10,048 bases of DNA from Acidobacteriota bacterium (GTDB lineage: Bacteria; Acidobacteriota; Terriglobia; UBA7540), in the NCBI GenBank assembly GCA_021789565.1, contig JAJYJL010000172.1, positions 1 to 10,048 on the forward strand. The letters run 5' to 3'. Below, one piece after another: positions 1-7,087 of the stretch. Below the pieces are notes generated by a model. It worked only from the letters and a program-made list of their open reading frames with translations, made no database searches and was not told the origin of the DNA. How positions within the stretch are numbered: the stretch's first letter is position 1; every line of letters starts with the position of its first letter. The translations under genes were made by a program, and so were the position numbers.

Positions 1-666
1 AGGGACCCTGTCCCAATAAACCCAGCCGCCGAAAGGATCGTTCAGCGGAATGCCATCTTCCAGGACCAGGGCCCGGCTGGCCCCGCTGGCTCCCACACCG
101 CGCAATGAGACTCCCTGGGCCGTTGGATTGGCCACCCGGCTGCCGGTGCGGCGGAAAAGGGTGAAGCCGGGCACCTGCTGGAGGATGCCATCCAGCGTGA
201 GGGCCGGCGTTGCGGCGATCTCGCGGTGCGTCAGGACGCGAACGTCGGCGGTGGTCTGGCTCAAGGGCGTCTGCATCCTTGTGGCCGTCACGGTCATCTG
301 CTCTGCCGTCGAGGCCGGATGCATGACCGCTTCCACCGACGCAGTTTCATCCGTTCCGGCACTCCAGTGCTCTTCCAATGTGGCGAATCCCTGGGCGCGG
401 ACCAGCAGGCTGCCACTGGATGCGGGAACACCACGGAAAACAAAATGTCCAACGGCGTCTGTGGTTCTTGTTGCCTTGTAACCCGCCGCGCGCAGAGTGA
501 CCTGGGCTGCCCTGATGACGGCGCCGCTCGGGTCCTTGACAACGCCTTCGACCCGATAAGAGGGGTTGGCGGTCTGCGGGCGCGGCGCCGCTTTCACGGC
601 CGGCAGCGCGGCGAATGCCATCAGTCCAGCCAGGGCGGCAACACAATGTCTGAAAAGAAATCTCAT
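1..666 (-). CDS. TonB-dependent outer-membrane receptor, N-terminal part (runs off the window)
   Basis: The first 222 codons of a TonB-dependent receptor are present; the beta-barrel lies beyond the left edge. Residues 1-27 form a signal peptide (MRFLFRH, a hydrophobic stretch, then an Ala-rich end near VKAA). Residues 38-118 resemble a carboxypeptidase-regulatory-like beta-sandwich, with GVVKDPSGA near 41-49 and DAVGHFVFRGV at 70-80. A TonB-box-like MTVTATR lies at 124-130. The plug domain follows, with LDGILQQVPGF (158-168), GVSLRGVGASGASR (185-198) and LVLEDGIPLNDPFGGW (200-215), which are strong family signatures. The ATG at 666-664 was chosen because it begins the signal peptide and has a purine-rich AAGG-containing stretch just upstream. 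Such receptors use TonB/ExbBD energy to import scarce ligands such as siderophores and cobalamin; the ligand here cannot be told from the plug. It lies downstream of egtB-egtD on the same strand after a 176-bp gap, so it may be co-transcribed or have its own promoter. Confidence 0.92.
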   Translation of the reverse strand, partial: MRFLFRHCVAALAGLMAFAALPAVKAAPRPQTANPSYRVEGVVKDPSGAVIRAAQVTLRAAGYKATRTTDAVGHFVFRGVPASSGSLLVRAQGFATLEEHWSAGTDETASVEAVMHPASTAEQMTVTATRMQTPLSQTTADVRVLTHREIAATPALTLDGILQQVPGFTLFRRTGSRVANPTAQGVSLRGVGASGASRALVLEDGIPLNDPFGGWVYWDRVP

Positions 667-1841: not shown

Positions 1842-3170
1842 CTAATTGCTGACGCAGCGGAACCCGGAATAAACGTACTGGTAATGCGGCTGGAACCAGT
1901 TCCGGAATGAGCGGCGCAGCATGCACGCCGCCGTCCGCGACGAGCCGCCCTTCATCACGTAATGTTTGCCGTCAAAAAAGTTGGCGGAATAGCCCCGATA
2001 GAAGGGAAAAGGTTCAAAGCCCTCAAAGGGCTGGAAGACCGTCGAGGTCCATTCCCAGCCGTTGCCCAGCAGGTCCGCCACGCCGAAGGAACTGCAGCCG
2101 GCGGGATGCGCCTGCACGGGAGTAGGGTCCCAGTTCCAGAAATCAAAGTTGCCGCGGTTCTTCTCCGGAGCGCCGGAGCCCCACGGATAGTCGGTTTCCT
2201 TTCCTTCACGTGTGCCGTAGGCGGCGCGATGAAACTGAGCCTCGGTGGGCAATTCTTTGCCGGCCCATCGGGCATAGGCCGCGGCTTCTGCGTGGCTCAC
2301 ATAGACCGGCCAGTCGAGCGGGAGGGGAATCTCCGCAAACATGGTCCGGTAGTTCCAGGCGCCTTCGCGCGGAACCCAGAAACGGGGATGGCGGATGCCC
2401 TCGCGTTCCTTCCACTCCCAGCCGGCATCGTCCCACAGGCTTCTCGTCTCGTAGCCGCCTTCGCGAAGGAACTTCAGGAACTCTCCGTTCGTTACTTTAA
2501 ATTCATCGATGGCAAAGGCGGGAACATGCGCCGTGTTGAGCTCGAATTCGTTGTCCCATCCAAAAACGCGGCCGGCCCTGGGCAGCCCCAGCGTTGCGGT
2601 TCCTGCGGGAATTTCGATCATTCTTCCGGTTTCGACTGGCGAGGCAGGTGCGTGGCTCTCCGACTGCTTCACTTTGCGATGGAGCGGCAACTGGTGCAGC
2701 ATGTAGGCAAGCGTTTCGGCGTGCATCAGGCGATGCTCGAGGGCAACGTTCACGTAGACGCCGGCTGACGAAAGATTGCCCGCGACATCCGTGAGGGGCT
2801 CATTCTCGAGCCGCGCATCCAGTTCTTCGCGCACGCGGTTGTTGTATTCATGGACTTCTTCGAGCGTGGGCCAGTCCGAGGGCTGGTCACTCGGCAGGCC
2901 GCCGTCAACCGGATCGATTCCAAACGCAAAAAGCTGGTCAAACTCAGGATGGAAGGATTGAGCCTGGTACGCATAATTTCCAAGCAGGTTCCAGTCAAAC
3001 GCCTCCAGGTGCCCAATGTAGAAAACAATGCGATGCCGTTCGGGAATGGGACGGTCATAGAGCGCATCGCGCAGGGGAACCTCGAAGAGTTGGTCCGTTG
3101 CAGCCCGAGCCTGGCCAAGCCTGGTCAGAAGGTCCGAAGATGGAGAAAGCTTCTGTTGGGTCTTGGTCAT
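1842..3170 (-). CDS. egtB: Hercynine oxygenase (ergothioneine sulfoxide synthase) EgtB
   Basis: This non-heme iron enzyme uses O2 to form the C-S bond between hercynine and a thiol donor, giving the sulfoxide precursor of ergothioneine. The 442 residues show an N-terminal DinB-like four-helix domain (about 15-165) and a C-terminal formylglycine-generating-enzyme-like (sulfatase-modifying factor) domain (about 183-442). Probable iron ligands are H54 in YIGHLEAFDW and the pair H146/H150 in EHRLMHAE, matching the three-histidine site of the family. The C-terminal fold shows WAGKELPTEAQF (302-313), LLGNGWEWT (367-375), KGGSS (407-411) and SGFRCV at the end. The arginine-rich segment that binds gamma-glutamylcysteine in mycobacterial EgtB is not evident at about 85-115, which instead reads GLPSDQPSDWPTLEEV; cysteine may therefore be the donor (inference). 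The adjacent egtD argues for EgtB over the ovothiol enzyme OvoA, which also usually carries an extra methyltransferase domain missing here. The start at 3170 has only a weak GGGGG-type ribosome site. Confidence 0.93.
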   Translation of the reverse strand: MTKTQQKLSPSSDLLTRLGQARAATDQLFEVPLRDALYDRPIPERHRIVFYIGHLEAFDWNLLGNYAYQAQSFHPEFDQLFAFGIDPVDGGLPSDQPSDWPTLEEVHEYNNRVREELDARLENEPLTDVAGNLSSAGVYVNVALEHRLMHAETLAYMLHQLPLHRKVKQSESHAPASPVETGRMIEIPAGTATLGLPRAGRVFGWDNEFELNTAHVPAFAIDEFKVTNGEFLKFLREGGYETRSLWDDAGWEWKEREGIRHPRFWVPREGAWNYRTMFAEIPLPLDWPVYVSHAEAAAYARWAGKELPTEAQFHRAAYGTREGKETDYPWGSGAPEKNRGNFDFWNWDPTPVQAHPAGCSSFGVADLLGNGWEWTSTVFQPFEGFEPFPFYRGYSANFFDGKHYVMKGGSSRTAACMLRRSFRNWFQPHYQYVYSGFRCVSN

Positions 3171-3191
3171 CTTGTTTTGCCCCCGCTACCG

Positions 3192-3222
3192 ATTAGATGA
3201 AATCGTGGCCGGCAGGTTGCAA
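3192..3222 (-). promoter_or_regulatory. Candidate promoter for egtB-egtD
   Basis: Reading the minus strand upstream of egtB, TTGCAA (3222-3217) could be a -35 box and TCTAAT (3197-3192) a -10 box with five of six consensus bases. They are separated by 19 bp, which is longer than ideal. Transcription would begin about 15-20 nt before the egtB ATG. The spacing and the weak -35 make this tentative. Confidence 0.25.
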
Positions 3223-3257
3223 TTTTTATGATTTTGGGGAGATCCGCCCCGCGCTGC

Positions 3258-3266
3258 TGTGATAAT
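3258..3266 (+). promoter_or_regulatory. Candidate extended -10 promoter for the ABC importer operon
   Basis: TGTGATAAT contains GATAAT (five of six -10 consensus bases) preceded by TG one base upstream, the extended -10 arrangement that can work without a good -35. No convincing -35 box lies 16-18 bp upstream. Transcription would start near 3273, giving a leader of about 70 nt before the ATPase ATG at 3345. That leader would contain the palindromes at 3289-3309. Confidence 0.3.
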
Positions 3267-3288
3267 AACAAATTGAGTCCGGCGATTT

Positions 3289-3309
3289 AAGCGCTTTCCG
3301 GAAAATTCC
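3289..3309. promoter_or_regulatory. Overlapping palindromes, possible operator before the importer operon
   Basis: Three symmetric elements overlap in 21 bp: AAGCGCTT (3289-3296, perfect), TTTCCGGAAA (3295-3304, perfect 10-mer) and GGAA-AA-TTCC (3300-3309). They lie just downstream of the candidate extended -10 promoter and 36 bp before the ATPase start, where a repressor could block transcription. The regulator is unknown, and no regulator gene is in the window. Confidence 0.3.
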
Positions 3310-3344
3310 AGATCTTCACGCTGTGCAAACTGGAGTCTCCCGCC

Positions 3345-4106
3345 ATGCCGCAACAGGAACAACACCCTGCATTGATTGACTTCCGCAACGTGCGTTACTC
3401 ACCCGATGGGCAGCGGGACGTGCTCTCAAACCTCAACCTGAAAGTTGAAGCTGGGGAAACGCTGGTATTGCTGGGCCGCAGCGGCGGCGGCAAGACGACA
3501 ACGCTGAAGATGATCAACCGGCTGATCGATCCCACGGAGGGCGAGGTGCTGGTGGAGGGCAGGTCCGTGCTGGAGTGGGACCCCATCCGGCTGCGGCGCG
3601 GAATCGGTTATGTCATTCAGGAAGTCGGGCTGCTTCCTCACCTCACGATTGAACGCAACATCGGCCTGCTTCCGCGGCTGGAGGGCTGGCCGCCGGAGCG
3701 GGCGCGGCGGCGCGTTGAAGAACTTCTTGAAATGGTGGCGCTCGATCCCGCAACCTTCCGCCATCGCTATCCGCGCGAGCTTTCCGGGGGGCAGCGGCAG
3801 CGGGTGGGCGTGGCGCGGGCGCTGGCCGCCGACCCGCCTATTCTTCTCATGGACGAGCCGTTCGGCGCGCTCGACCCGCTCACACGGACTGAAATTCAAA
3901 AGGAGTTTATTGCCTTGCAGCAGCGGCTGCGCAAGACCATCGTTTTTGTCACGCATGACATTCAAGAGGCCCTGATGGTGGGCACACGCATCGCTCTGCT
4001 TGAAGGCGGCCAACTGGTGGGAACTTACACACGAACGGAATTCCTGAATTCCAGCGATCCCACGGTGAATGCCTATCTCAGCGTATTGCGTGCCGCGGCG
4101 CCGTGA
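3345..4106 (+). CDS. ABC importer ATP-binding protein, OpuCA/OsmV (quaternary amine) type
   Basis: This is the cytoplasmic ATPase subunit that powers the importer encoded by the next two genes. The 253 residues show every ABC motif: Walker A GRSGGGKT (44-51), Q-loop Q92 in IQEVGLLPHLT, signature LSGGQRQR (146-153), Walker B ILLMDE (166-171) with catalytic E171, the D-loop at GALDPLT, and the switch histidine H204 in VTHD. The IQEVGLLPH and DPLTRTEIQKEF segments are typical of the glycine betaine/carnitine/choline/osmoprotectant group. The protein stops soon after the ATPase core and lacks the C-terminal CBS pair that senses ionic strength in OpuA/OpuC ATPases, so osmotic gating by that route is unlikely. 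The ATG at 3345 has GGAG (3332-3335) nine bases upstream. The operon is transcribed divergently from egtB. Family is certain; substrate is not. Confidence 0.93.
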   Translation: MPQQEQHPALIDFRNVRYSPDGQRDVLSNLNLKVEAGETLVLLGRSGGGKTTTLKMINRLIDPTEGEVLVEGRSVLEWDPIRLRRGIGYVIQEVGLLPHLTIERNIGLLPRLEGWPPERARRRVEELLEMVALDPATFRHRYPRELSGGQRQRVGVARALAADPPILLMDEPFGALDPLTRTEIQKEFIALQQRLRKTIVFVTHDIQEALMVGTRIALLEGGQLVGTYTRTEFLNSSDPTVNAYLSVLRAAAP

Positions 4107-4118
4107 GCGTTTTGTTCA

Positions 4119-4175
4119 GGGGCCGAAGCCCCGAGAGAAGATTTCGTGGCACTCTAACGGCACGACTGAAGTCGT
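4119..4175. repeat. Two-hairpin palindromic (REP-like) element within the importer operon
   Basis: The 135-bp gap between the ATPase and permease genes holds two short hairpins: GGGGC-CGAA-GCCCC (4119-4132) and ACGAC-TGAA-GTCGT (4162-4175). Both loops end in GAA and the hairpins are about 30 bp apart. This resembles a dispersed double-hairpin repeat I recall from acidobacterial genomes, with arms of the form GGGGCTnAAGCCCC and GCACGACTGAAGTCGTGC. The outer arms here are partly degraded (C-C mismatch outside the second stem). Only one copy is present in the window, so its repeat status rests on memory. A terminator is less likely because no T-run follows either stem and the same operon continues. 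Confidence 0.5.
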
Positions 4176-4227
4176 CTTTCACGGGGCCCTATTGCAGCGT
4201 GAATGGCCCGGTCGGACTGCCCAAATG

Positions 4228-4233
4228 AAGGAG
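4228..4233 (+). promoter_or_regulatory. Ribosome binding site that fixes the permease start
   Basis: AAGGAG lies eight bases before the ATG at 4242. The upstream in-frame ATG at 4203 would add 13 polar residues to a membrane protein, would place this ribosome site inside the coding region, and has no comparable site of its own. Confidence 0.8.
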
Positions 4234-4241
4234 AATTTTTC

Positions 4242-4883
4242 ATGAGCCTGCTGGATTTTTTCGTTAGAAATCGCGCGGAAATCTGGATGCTGACGCTCGA
4301 GCACTGCTGGCTGGTGGGCATGTCGATGCTGCTGGCCGTGGCGATTGGCGTTCCGCTGGGAATTGTGATCACCCGCCGCCCGTCGCTCAACAAGCCCATT
4401 CTGGGAAGCGCCAACATCATCCAGACAATACCCAGCCTGGCGCTTTTCGGGTTCCTGCTGCCTATGCCCTGGCTGGGCGCGCGGGCCGACCGGCTGGCCA
4501 TCGCCGCCCTCACCGGATACGCTTTGCTGCCGGTCATCCGCAACACTTACACCGGCATCGTGGGGGTTGACCCGAGCGTGCGTGAGGCCGCGCGCGGCAT
4601 GGGCTTGACGGACTGGCAACTGCTGTGTCACGTTGAACTCCCGCTGGCTTTGGGCGTGATCCTGGCGGGAATCCGCGTGGCCACGGTGATCACCGTGGGC
4701 GTGGCCACCATTGCCGCAGCCATTGGCGCCGGCGGCCTGGGCGAGTTCATCTTCCGGGGCCTGGCCATGGTGGATAATCGCGTCATCCTGGCCGGAGCGA
4801 TTCCGGCGGCGCTGATGGGGCTGCTGGCCGATTTCCTCCTGGGCTGGGCCGGACGCCATCTGGTTCCTTCGGCGAAGTTATGA
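4242..4883 (+). CDS. ABC importer permease, OpuCB/OsmW (quaternary amine) type
   Basis: This is the inner-membrane channel subunit. The protein has 213 residues from the ATG at 4242. Hydrophobic segments lie at about 20-43 (CWLVGMSMLLAVAIGVPLG), 52-78, 86-108, 134-165 and 182-204, consistent with five or six membrane helices and the usual size for OpuCB-like permeases. The cytoplasmic EAA loop that docks on the ATPase is clear: REAARGMGLTDWQLLCHVELP (114-134). The IIQTIPSLALFGFLLP segment (59-74) and IGAGGLGEFIFRG (161-173) are hallmarks of the betaine/osmoprotectant permease family. The next gene starts inside its stop codon (ATGA, 4880-4883), so they are translationally coupled. The ergothioneine permease EgtU is a fusion of this type of permease with its binding domain; here the two are separate proteins. 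Confidence 0.93.
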   Translation: MSLLDFFVRNRAEIWMLTLEHCWLVGMSMLLAVAIGVPLGIVITRRPSLNKPILGSANIIQTIPSLALFGFLLPMPWLGARADRLAIAALTGYALLPVIRNTYTGIVGVDPSVREAARGMGLTDWQLLCHVELPLALGVILAGIRVATVITVGVATIAAAIGAGGLGEFIFRGLAMVDNRVILAGAIPAALMGLLADFLLGWAGRHLVPSAKL

Positions 4884-5761
4884 AGAAGGCATTCTGGACA
4901 ATTCTGCTGGCCACCATCCTCTGCTCCTGCGGACCGTCGCGCCGCAAGGTGCTTGTGGTGGGCGCCAAGAACTTCACGGAGCAGACCATCCTAGGCGAGA
5001 TGCTGGCGCAATACCTGCATGCGCAGACCGGAATCGAGGTGGAGCGGCGTTTCGACCTGGGCGGGACCTACGTCTGTCAGGCGGCGCTGATGGCCGGGCG
5101 CATCGATGTCTACGTTGAATATACCGGGACCGCTCTGACGGCCATCCTCAAGCAGCCTGTCGAGCACAACGCCGCGGACGCTTACAATAAAGTCAAAGAG
5201 CTCTACGCCACGCGTTTCAATCTCGACGTGATGCCCCCGCTGGGATTCGACGACACTTTTGTTCTGGTGGTTCGCGGCGAGACGGCGCGGAAAGACCACA
5301 TCCGGACCATTTCACAAGCCGCGCCGTACGCCCGCCACTGGCGGCCGGGATTCGGCTATGAATTTATGGAAAGGGAAGATGGTTATAAAGGTCTGGTCAA
5401 AACCTATCATCTGAAGTTTGGCGAGCCGCCCAGAATTATGGACCTGGGGTTGCTCTATCGTGCTCTTCTCGAAAAGCAGGTGGACGTGGTGGCCGGCAAT
5501 TCCACCGATGCCCAGCTTGAAGCTCAGGATTTCGTCGTGCTGCGGGACAACAAGCATTATTTCCCGCCCTACGAAGCCGTCCCGATTGTTCGCACCAAAA
5601 CACTTTCAGAGTATCCTGCCGTCTACGCCGCCCTGGAGCAACTGGCCGGCAAAATCTCAGAGACCGACATGCGGCATTTGAATTACGAAGTCGTGGCAGA
5701 GCACCGCGACGCCAAGGCAGCGGTGGAGGAGTTCCTGCGCGCTAAGAATCTGGTCCCGTAA
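4880..5761 (+). CDS. Substrate-binding lipoprotein of the quaternary-amine ABC importer (OpuAC/OsmX family)
   Basis: This is the extracytoplasmic receptor that captures ligand for the permease. The 293 residues begin with a short signal ending in lipobox L14-C-S-C17, so C17 is probably lipidated and anchors the protein on the periplasmic face. Family motifs are GAKNFTEQTILGEM (28-41), DVYVEYTGTALT (76-87), GYEFMEREDGYKGL (159-172), VDVVAGNSTDAQL (201-213) and HYFPPYEAVPIV (226-237). The family binds quaternary ammonium compounds such as glycine betaine, choline and carnitine, and in EgtU ergothioneine. AGNSTD stands where many relatives have A-Y/F-S/T-TD, so ligand contacts may differ. The 4-bp overlap with the permease stop and the divergent egtB-egtD pair suggest, but do not prove, a hercynine- or ergothioneine-type ligand. 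It ends 12 bp from the convergent sucB stop. Confidence 0.92.
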   Translation: MKKAFWTILLATILCSCGPSRRKVLVVGAKNFTEQTILGEMLAQYLHAQTGIEVERRFDLGGTYVCQAALMAGRIDVYVEYTGTALTAILKQPVEHNAADAYNKVKELYATRFNLDVMPPLGFDDTFVLVVRGETARKDHIRTISQAAPYARHWRPGFGYEFMEREDGYKGLVKTYHLKFGEPPRIMDLGLLYRALLEKQVDVVAGNSTDAQLEAQDFVVLRDNKHYFPPYEAVPIVRTKTLSEYPAVYAALEQLAGKISETDMRHLNYEVVAEHRDAKAAVEEFLRAKNLVP

Positions 5762-5773
5762 AAGCACTGTTAC

Positions 5774-7087
5774 TTAAAGTGTGAAAAGCAGGCTGGCCGG
5801 GTCTTCCACCAGTTCCTTCACGCGCACCAGGAACTGCACCGCTTCCGTGCCATCGACAATGCGGTGGTCATAGCTGAGGGCCAGGTACATCATGGGGCGG
5901 ATTTCAACTTTGCCATCCACGGGCACGGCGCGGTCCTCAATCTTGTGAAGCCCCAGGATGCCCACCTGTGGCGGGTTCAGGATGGGAGTGCTGAGCAGCG
6001 AGCCGTAAACGCCGCCGTTGGAAATGGTGAAGGTCCCGCCGCGGAGTTCATCCAGAGTCAGTTCGCCGGCCGAGGCTTTGCGGGCGAATTCCTTGATGGC
6101 GGTTTCGATTTCCGCGAAGCTCATCTGGTCCGCGTCGCGCAGCACGGGAACCACCAGTCCCTCGGATGCGCCGACTGCCACGCCGATGTCGTAGTAATGC
6201 TTCAGGACCATCTCGGTCCCCTGGATTTCGGCGTTCAGGCGGGGAAACTGCCGCAGGGCGCCGATCGAGGCTTTGACAAAGAACGAGGCGATGCCCAGGC
6301 TCACGCCGTGCTGCTTCTTGAAGTTTTCTTTCCATCGCGCCCGCAGCTTCATCACTTCCGTCATGTCGACTTCGTTAAAAGTGGTCAGCATGGCGGCGGA
6401 GTGCTGCGCTTCCACCAGTCGCCGCGCAATCGTCTGCCTGCGGCGAGACATTCGGACGCGCTCTTCCAGTCTTGCGCGGGGCGCGGCAGAGCCGGGAACA
6501 AGCTGGGGCGCGGCCATGCTGGCAGGGGCAGATTTTCCCCCAGGTTTTGTTGGTGCCGCGGCTTCGGCGCGATGGTTCTCAATGAAATTCTCGACATCGC
6601 GCTGCCGGATGCGGCCTGCCGCGTCACTGGGCTGGACCCGGGAAAGATCAACGCCGTGCTCTTCGGCAATGCGCCGGGCCAGAGGTGTTACCGTGCGTTT
6701 CGGTGCGGCTTCCACAGTTTCTTCTTCTGCTTCTTCACTGGCAGCAATGGCAGCGGCAGCTTTCGGTTGAACTTTCGCTTCCCCGGGGTCTTCTTTTTTG
6801 GCGGGTTTGGTTTCACCGCCTTTCGTGGCAGCCGCTTCTTCAGCGGGCGCTTCCTCGATCACTCCAAGCAGGTCGCCAATTTTGACGTCCTCGCCTTCTT
6901 TTCTCTCGATGCGGGCCAGCACGCCACTTCGTTCGGCGCCGACTTCCAGATCCACTTTCTCGGTCTCAAGTTCCACCAGGACATCGCCCACGGCCACACG
7001 GTCGCCCTGCTGCTTTCTCCAATGTCCAACCGTGGCTTCAACAACGGATTCACCCAGTTCGGGCACGACGATTTTGGTCGTCACCAT
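5774..7087 (-). CDS. sucB: Dihydrolipoyllysine succinyltransferase, E2 of the 2-oxoglutarate dehydrogenase complex
   Basis: E2 forms the core of the cytoplasmic 2-oxoglutarate dehydrogenase complex and passes the succinyl group from E1 to coenzyme A. The 437 residues show, in order: a lipoyl domain (1-78) with lipoylated K44 in ETEKVDLEV; an Ala/Glu/Lys/Pro linker (79-130); the peripheral-subunit-binding domain (132-169, [19 protein letters not shown] and [12 protein letters not shown]); a second flexible linker; and the catalytic domain (about 207-437) with H408 and D412 in [17 protein letters not shown] (236-243) and [15 protein letters not shown] (355-369) favour succinyl- over acetyltransferase. 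The start at 7087 follows a strong ribosome site and begins the lipoyl domain exactly; an upstream in-frame ATG at 7177 would add 30 out-of-family residues encoded within sucA. The first 38 bp overlap the end of sucA. No E3 (lpd) gene is in the window. Confidence 0.95.

Follow-up and report, generated by a model that had tools for sequence, protein, structure and literature searches.

The OpuC, OpuB and ProX importers of glycine betaine, choline and carnitine have a separate substrate-binding protein, either a lipoprotein or periplasmic, and CBS domains are a feature of the osmoregulated OpuA and OpuC ATPases. In the ergothioneine importer EgtU (EgtUV) of Streptococcus pneumoniae, Listeria and Helicobacter pylori, the permease and the binding domain are fused. 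As far as its available text goes, the report on EgtU concerns bacteria that are unable to make ergothioneine, and the term EgtB does not occur in it (PMC9732360). Here we analyse a 10,048-nucleotide stretch of DNA from an Acidobacteriota bacterium (contig JAJYJL010000172.1; the whole stretch is hereafter referred to as the window), in which an importer with a separate lipoprotein as its binding protein accompanies the ergothioneine-making genes egtB and egtD, unlike the EgtU of non-producers. A literature search at the level of abstracts, which left most subscription papers uncovered, found no report of an importer beside egtB–egtD. We show that the two recur together across relatives and, on balance and with some reserve, favour the reading that the importer carries ergothioneine, perhaps hercynine too, in ergothioneine producers.

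The importer lies on the plus strand and comprises a ProV-like ATPase gene (3345–4106; 253 amino acids; PF00005), a permease gene (4242–4883; PF00528, BPD_transp_1, 83 bits) and a gene for a substrate-binding lipoprotein of the OpuAC family with a cluster F-III fold (4880–5761; 293 amino acids). The permease frame is open from 4203, but 4242 is the likelier start, as an AAGGAG that reads like a ribosome-binding site lies just 5′ of ATGAGCCTG; its stop codon overlaps the ATG of the binding-protein gene. The binding protein has the lipobox LCSC, read from the sequence, and its lipidated Cys17 (codon 4928–4930) is invariant in 18 of 18 aligned proteins, window included. On the minus strand lie egtD (843–1820; 325 amino acids), encoding the hercynine-making L-histidine N-alpha-methyltransferase, and a gene for an EgtB-like sulfoxide synthase (1842–3170; 442 amino acids). 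A preliminary description of this locus had proposed a complete three-gene importer, divergent from egtB–egtD across 174 bp, with permease and binding protein encoded separately and the latter a lipoprotein. The open frames, the Pfam families, the lipobox and a divergent intergenic region of exactly 174 bp (3171–3344) confirm each of these points.

Linkage of the importer to egtBD

The preliminary description had drawn on gene context in this single genome, and this neighbourhood turned out to recur widely. We analysed a sample of 299 genomes from the class of the acidobacterial relative G003, drawn evenly from the larger group. The linkage counts rest on the best 150 places each for the binding protein and for EgtD, with 26 of the 176 genomes that have the binding protein, and the genomes with lower-ranking EgtD matches, falling outside, and on a close type of EgtD delimited by a cut of our own (E ≤ 2.8e-77, at a gap from 2.8e-77 to 1.9e-73; 131 places in 129 genomes). 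Among the matches listed, the binding protein and a close-type EgtD occur together in 90 genomes, and in 45 of these 90 testable genomes the two lie within 6 kb on one contig, in four gene orders and several clades; pairs on one contig but farther apart than 6 kb are absent among the matches listed.

In the 59 genomes that have both genes among the matches listed (best 150 places; 244 of the 299 genomes matched), the distance between the control gene sucA and the binding protein is at most 6 kb in 3 and at most 14 kb in 6. The three closer cases (G066, G080 and G117) belong to the window's own clade and have sucA identities of 80–82%. In the related genomes G033, G041 and G049, a distance of 7 to 14 kb separates the binding protein from a sucA of 43–44% identity, by chance or as an old neighbourhood. 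When the other neighbours were clustered across 57 loci, one family, which we take from sequence reading to be glycosidase-like, appeared in 19 loci, all of one divergent clade and two from one genome, and a second, presumably PhzF-like on the same basis, in 7 loci, two from one genome; the remainder appeared in at most 5 loci, a few of them across clades. Thus, egtBD recurs beside the importer far more than any other neighbour, the others being rarer or confined to a clade. Such widespread, recurrent linkage supports a functional tie of the importer to ergothioneine metabolism.

With the binding protein as query, one genome per species was scanned, which gave 574 relatives; the best 80 of the 574 loci were kept. 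In these 80, egtD was found in 14 and egtB in 11 loci at ≥45% identity, and sucA, sucB and the TonB-dependent receptor of the window in none; many of the 80 loci end at contig breaks, and in L036, counted among the 14, egtD is present only in pieces. Across the 299 genomes, the binding protein is present in 176 and EgtD in 209; 160 genomes have both, 16 only the binding protein, 49 only EgtD and 74 neither. EgtD therefore occurs in 160 of 176 genomes with the binding protein versus 49 of 123 without it (Fisher odds ratio 15, p = 1e-21, uncorrected for kinship). In all of 40 genomes tested (26 linked and 14 unlinked), a search at E 1e-8 gave exactly one OpuAC-family match, which coincides with this binding protein; a BCCT carrier was found in none of the 40.

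Two kinds of EgtD exist in the G003 class, those of linked genomes being 53–80% identical to that of the window and the distant kind mostly 42–47%. EgtB likewise falls into two kinds in 12 genomes (57–80% versus 26–34%), and G080 has both. Only the close kind of either enzyme was found beside the importer.

Gene orders, intergenic region and phylogeny

Genes were mapped in all 45 linked and 15 unlinked regions. Seen from the binding-protein gene, the linked arrangements comprise 29 that are divergent, 10 with egtD downstream and 5 with egtD upstream on the same strand, and 1 that is convergent. Seen from the ATPase gene, the same four classes number 31, 8, 5 and 1, because the binding-protein gene has been turned or moved in G005 (L206) and G264 (L209). 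Where egtD and the ATPase gene share a strand in L195–L198, they are 20–46 bp apart, a spacing that is to be expected of a single transcript. Besides the window, 29 divergent loci of L165–L209 have the ends of the egtB and ATPase matches 145–479 bp apart, with 26 of the 29 at 145–222 bp. Two linked regions, L193 and L206, lack EgtB; of the corresponding genomes, G187 has EgtB elsewhere (57% identity) and G005 only a 34% relative.

The 174-bp gap of the window contains conserved blocks shared with the relatives G066 and G080. A scan of 3100–5850 for sigma-70-like promoters gave 0 sites (0.8 expected), and a terminator scan likewise gave nothing above chance. Of the shared control region put forward in the preliminary description, the gap and its conserved blocks therefore stand and a recognizable promoter does not; shared control of the two gene groups is what we infer.

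A tree of 101 binding proteins, built by a quick method, comprises 97 proteins with an assigned linkage state and four outside rows, which are the S. pneumoniae, Listeria (Lm) and H. pylori EgtU proteins and one Rhizobium protein, the last two on long branches; 38 distinct proteins of unknown linkage state were left out. On this tree, the linked and unlinked states must change 6 times (starred branches force at least 3 of these) and gene order 11 times; at least 2 changes of the divergent label are likewise forced by starred branches. The window belongs to a clade of four rows, with L106, L107 and L108 (support 100), which stands apart from a 28-row clade (27 divergent and 1 convergent; support 87) that makes up 28 of the 54 linked rows. 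With several branches near the base being linked, repeated gain and an ancient linkage followed by losses and rearrangements are equally likely; under gain or loss, the pairing of importer and egtD has outlived rearrangement.

Two of the linked rows were scored from incomplete genes. L108 (G117) has an egtD fragment and a broken permease beside a full-length binding-protein match, with egtB and the ATPase gene not found between them, reflecting either a deletion or an assembly join. L036 has egtD-like pieces (short matches, 11446–11780) beside the importer, and the same genome has an open-frame EgtD at L087. In the close metagenome relatives P0028, P0040, P0041 and P0047, the permease lacks its end and its reading frame continues into the binding protein, a truncated fusion that reflects either decay or a real fusion.

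Protein families and the binding pocket

EgtD exceeds the TIGR03438 cut-off (298.8 versus 290.9 bits, NCBIfam) and matches PF10017 with 308 bits (Pfam). The EgtB protein has FGE-sulfatase and DinB_2 domains (Pfam) and stays below every NCBIfam cut-off, namely those for the OvoA N-terminal region (301 of 400 bits), EgtB (TIGR03440; 251.3 of 360) and SenA (248 of 420). Among solved proteins it is closest to EgtB-IV (8vih, 268 bits), an ergothioneine-making relative of OvoA, and it is likely, though not proven, an EgtB-IV-like enzyme.

The binding protein exceeds the cut-off for PF04069 (OpuAC) with 197.5 bits and does not reach that for the OsmF-type glycine betaine binder (NF049931; 116.1 versus 400 bits). 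The ATPase does not reach the cut-off for the ProV-type betaine/proline/choline subfamily (TIGR01186; 272.3 versus 326.6 bits), and Pfam gives it only ABC_tran and AAA_21, without CBS domains. The closest binding proteins, under names that include Terriglobia and Acidobacteriota, are annotated as glycine betaine or osmoprotectant binders. Solved matches that score among, or just below, the engineered sensors described further on include OpuCC (3ppn, 165 bits), H. pylori EgtU (HpEgtU; 161), the ergothioneine binder Lmo1422 of Listeria (157), OpuBC (144–147), S. pneumoniae EgtUC and its mutants (139–145) and AfProX (137–138). The OpuC, OpuB and ProX proteins share the fold and 30–34% identity with the binding protein. 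The possibility, raised beforehand, that the protein would group tightly with glycine betaine or choline binders did not materialize, and it does not group with EgtU either. A first AlphaFold 2 model (18 sequences; predicted local distance difference test score (pLDDT) 74) ranked the HpEgtU structure 8dp7 first, tied with others, whereas with a better model (25 sequences; pLDDT 92.6) EgtU came out level with or below sensor, OpuCC and AfProX structures. Because EgtU ranks no higher in the better model, we dropped fold similarity as a guide to the substrate.

We mapped pocket positions by alignment to S. pneumoniae EgtU (SpEgtU) in 135 distinct proteins, window included. In SpEgtU, K242, T296 and R379 contact the carboxylate of ergothioneine and E375 the imidazole N-epsilon (PMC9732360, available text). 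This carboxylate clamp is kept as K30, T84 and R165, invariant in 135 of 135, and E161 corresponds to E375 (Glu in 132, Asp in 3); K30, F32, Y81, T84, F123, R165, D167 and Y231 do not vary among the 135. The Phe293/Tyr337 switch of SpEgtU is absent, the window having Y81 and F123. HpEgtU, solved with ergothioneine (8dp7), has Tyr and Phe, respectively, at these places and Ser in place of Gly244, so ergothioneine can be bound without the switch, and not every EgtU has the Gly. The cage of four aromatics (SpEgtU F293, Y341, Y419 and Y443) is represented by Y81, F127, N207 and Y231, that is, three aromatics and an Asn, and the position of the thione contact (SpEgtU I243) is N, F or D in the proteins examined. 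The window thus differs from EgtU in having F at G244, N at Y419 and F at Y341. It differs from OpuC, OpuB and ProX in having Asn at position 207 (Tyr in 3ppn), an ATPase without CBS domains and a tie to egtBD, and shares F32 and the Y81/F123 pair with AfProX.

Compared with EgtU, as the preliminary description had suggested, the pocket retains the carboxylate clamp and the key Glu and departs from it at F32, at N207 and in the switch; it is neither a plain EgtU nor a plain glycine-betaine pocket. By its residues, it is a pocket for a carboxylate-bearing betaine in which the usual cage lacks one of its walls, and alone it makes no choice between ergothioneine, hercynine and glycine betaine. 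We also considered classing the importer as an EgtU and rejected this, as the fusion and the three sequence features tested were absent. Their absence lowers the claim that it is an EgtU, not the claim that it may work like one. At position 63, 49 of 54 linked proteins have Thr and 29 of 43 unlinked ones have Ser, and at position 31, Phe occurs in 20 of the 54 linked proteins and in none of the 43 unlinked ones; these differences were read, without a formal test, as following clades and were not counted as evidence of specificity.

A relative of the binding protein with 40% identity is encoded on plasmid pRL12 of Rhizobium ruizarguesonis (L164, 4372–6879), beside genes annotated as hutC and hutH. 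The hutH product is below the HutH cut-off (387 versus 539 bits); among solved proteins it matches an ergothionase best (265 bits) and histidine ammonia-lyases less well (up to 243 bits). The locus is a candidate cluster for ergothioneine or hercynine breakdown, and this one cluster hints, without amounting to proof, at a role with histidine betaines for relatives of the binding protein elsewhere too.

Candidate substrates

Several observations weigh against ergothioneine as the substrate. The solved sequences closest to the binding protein are engineered acetylcholine and nicotine sensors (157–183 bits), presumably derived from a betaine/choline-type binder. N207 takes the place of a cage aromatic that is Tyr in SpEgtU and in 3ppn and Phe in HpEgtU, with Asn in 127, Ser in 7 and Ala in 1 of the 135 proteins. 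F32, at the position of SpEgtU G244, is Phe in 135 of 135. In the available text of the EgtU report, the glycine-betaine binder AfProX also has Phe there, G244F cuts ergothioneine binding by S. pneumoniae EgtU ~100-fold with stability lowered, and H. pylori-type EgtU has a significantly lower ergothioneine affinity than SpEgtU (PMC9732360). Importers not linked to egtD, cyanobacterial ones among them, have nearly the same pocket. In 16 of the 176 genomes with the binding protein, EgtD was not detected, and EgtB was not found in any of the five of these that were tested; they would be pure scavengers, and incomplete assemblies may explain some. In the other 45 of the 90 genomes, binding protein and EgtD are on different contigs and show no linkage. 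Contig breaks in fragmented genomes hide linkage, as in G008, where EgtB, EgtD, ATPase and permease are on one contig and the binding protein is on another. The distant type of EgtD is never linked to the importer (19 places among the matches listed, one of which, in G159, is a short piece at 59% identity); two of these places share a contig with the binding protein, 1.0 and 2.8 Mb away. Finally, a sole OpuAC-type importer in 40 of 40 genomes is also what a general betaine importer would give.

Such an importer, taking up glycine betaine, choline or carnitine under osmotic or desiccation stress, with egtBD adjacent as co-controlled stress genes, is the main alternative, and we give it tentative weight. 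It would agree with the single PF04069 protein and the lack of a BCCT carrier in all 40 genomes, with F32 and the Y81/F123 pair as in AfProX, with unlinked members, cyanobacteria included, that have nearly the same pocket, and with choline-type sensors as the closest solved sequences. However, it leaves unexplained why egtBD recurs in four gene orders and far above other neighbours, and it sits uneasily with an ATPase devoid of CBS domains and with position 207, which is an aromatic cage residue in the solved betaine binders examined, whereas 127 of the 135 proteins have Asn there and the other 8 have Ser or Ala. In Corynebacterium glutamicum, ergothioneine in the medium rose slightly on deletion of betP, a betaine carrier gene (PMC12689799, available text), so general betaine carriers may also take ergothioneine, which fits this alternative and ergothioneine import alike.

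Uptake of hercynine, the histidine betaine produced by EgtD, to feed EgtB would save three S-adenosylmethionine-dependent methylations, and we consider it unlikely as the importer's role. The Rhizobium pRL12 relative beside an ergothionase-like lyase, which suggests that relatives may handle histidine betaines, the N, F or D at the thione contact position, and L193 and L206, where EgtD without an adjacent EgtB lies beside the importer and the tie may thus be to EgtD, would all suit such a role. Yet EgtD is kept in linked loci, where it would be partly redundant, SpEgtU favours ergothioneine over hercynine ~10,000-fold, and the Rhizobium evidence is a single cluster. A neighbourhood due to chance or inheritance, devoid of functional meaning, is highly improbable: synteny can persist among relatives, and one clade supplies 28 of the 54 linked rows of the tree, but the four gene orders, the several clades and the sucA control (only 3 of 59 among the matches listed) argue against it. 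The ergothioneine or hercynine importer of the preliminary description is thus upheld as regards its functional tie to ergothioneine metabolism, which the linkage backs; between these substrates and general betaines, pocket and sequence do not decide.

Neighbouring genes in the window

The window also contains sucA and sucB, which we take from sequence reading to be the identity of two minus-strand genes convergent with the importer; sucA lies ~1.3 kb past the binding-protein gene. The start of a TonB-dependent receptor (Plug domain, Pfam; 1–666, minus strand) begins ~176 bp after egtD on the same strand. Relatives of this receptor (59–61%) adjoin egtD or its fragment in L137/L188 and L108, and none was found in L177. 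The receptor is a possible outer-membrane partner of the module.

Discussion

On the ergothioneine reading, the synthesis enzymes and the single-copy ATP-binding cassette (ABC) importer of ergothioneine, perhaps also of hercynine, would form one functional module. EgtD would make hercynine from histidine and EgtB would add the cysteine sulfur, while the lipoprotein would capture a trimethylated betaine from the periplasm, its carboxylate held by K30, T84 and R165, its trimethylammonium group in the cage of Y81, F127 and Y231, and its imidazole reached by E161 in the pose we propose. The ligand would then be passed to the permease, with the ATPase driving its import. The benefit might be the recapture of leaked or secreted ergothioneine, or uptake from soil fungi and actinobacteria.

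The fuller proposal, in which Acidobacteriota ergothioneine producers have a dedicated, single-copy ergothioneine/hercynine importer on a branch separate from EgtU, with a cage of three aromatics plus an Asn, in which synthesis and import form one recurrently rearranged module and uptake is not confined to non-makers, is in our view evenly balanced between right and wrong. If correct, the range of recognized ergothioneine-binding sites would grow by this unusual pocket, and OpuAC proteins could be annotated more safely. Dedicated bacterial ergothioneine importers have so far been described in non-makers, in the available text of the EgtU report (PMC9732360). Our comparison of sequences suggests that soil bacteria related to this one may take up ergothioneine as well as make it. 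If producers import it too, ergothioneine would count among the metabolites traded in soil, with the five-gene module as a simple genomic marker for this.

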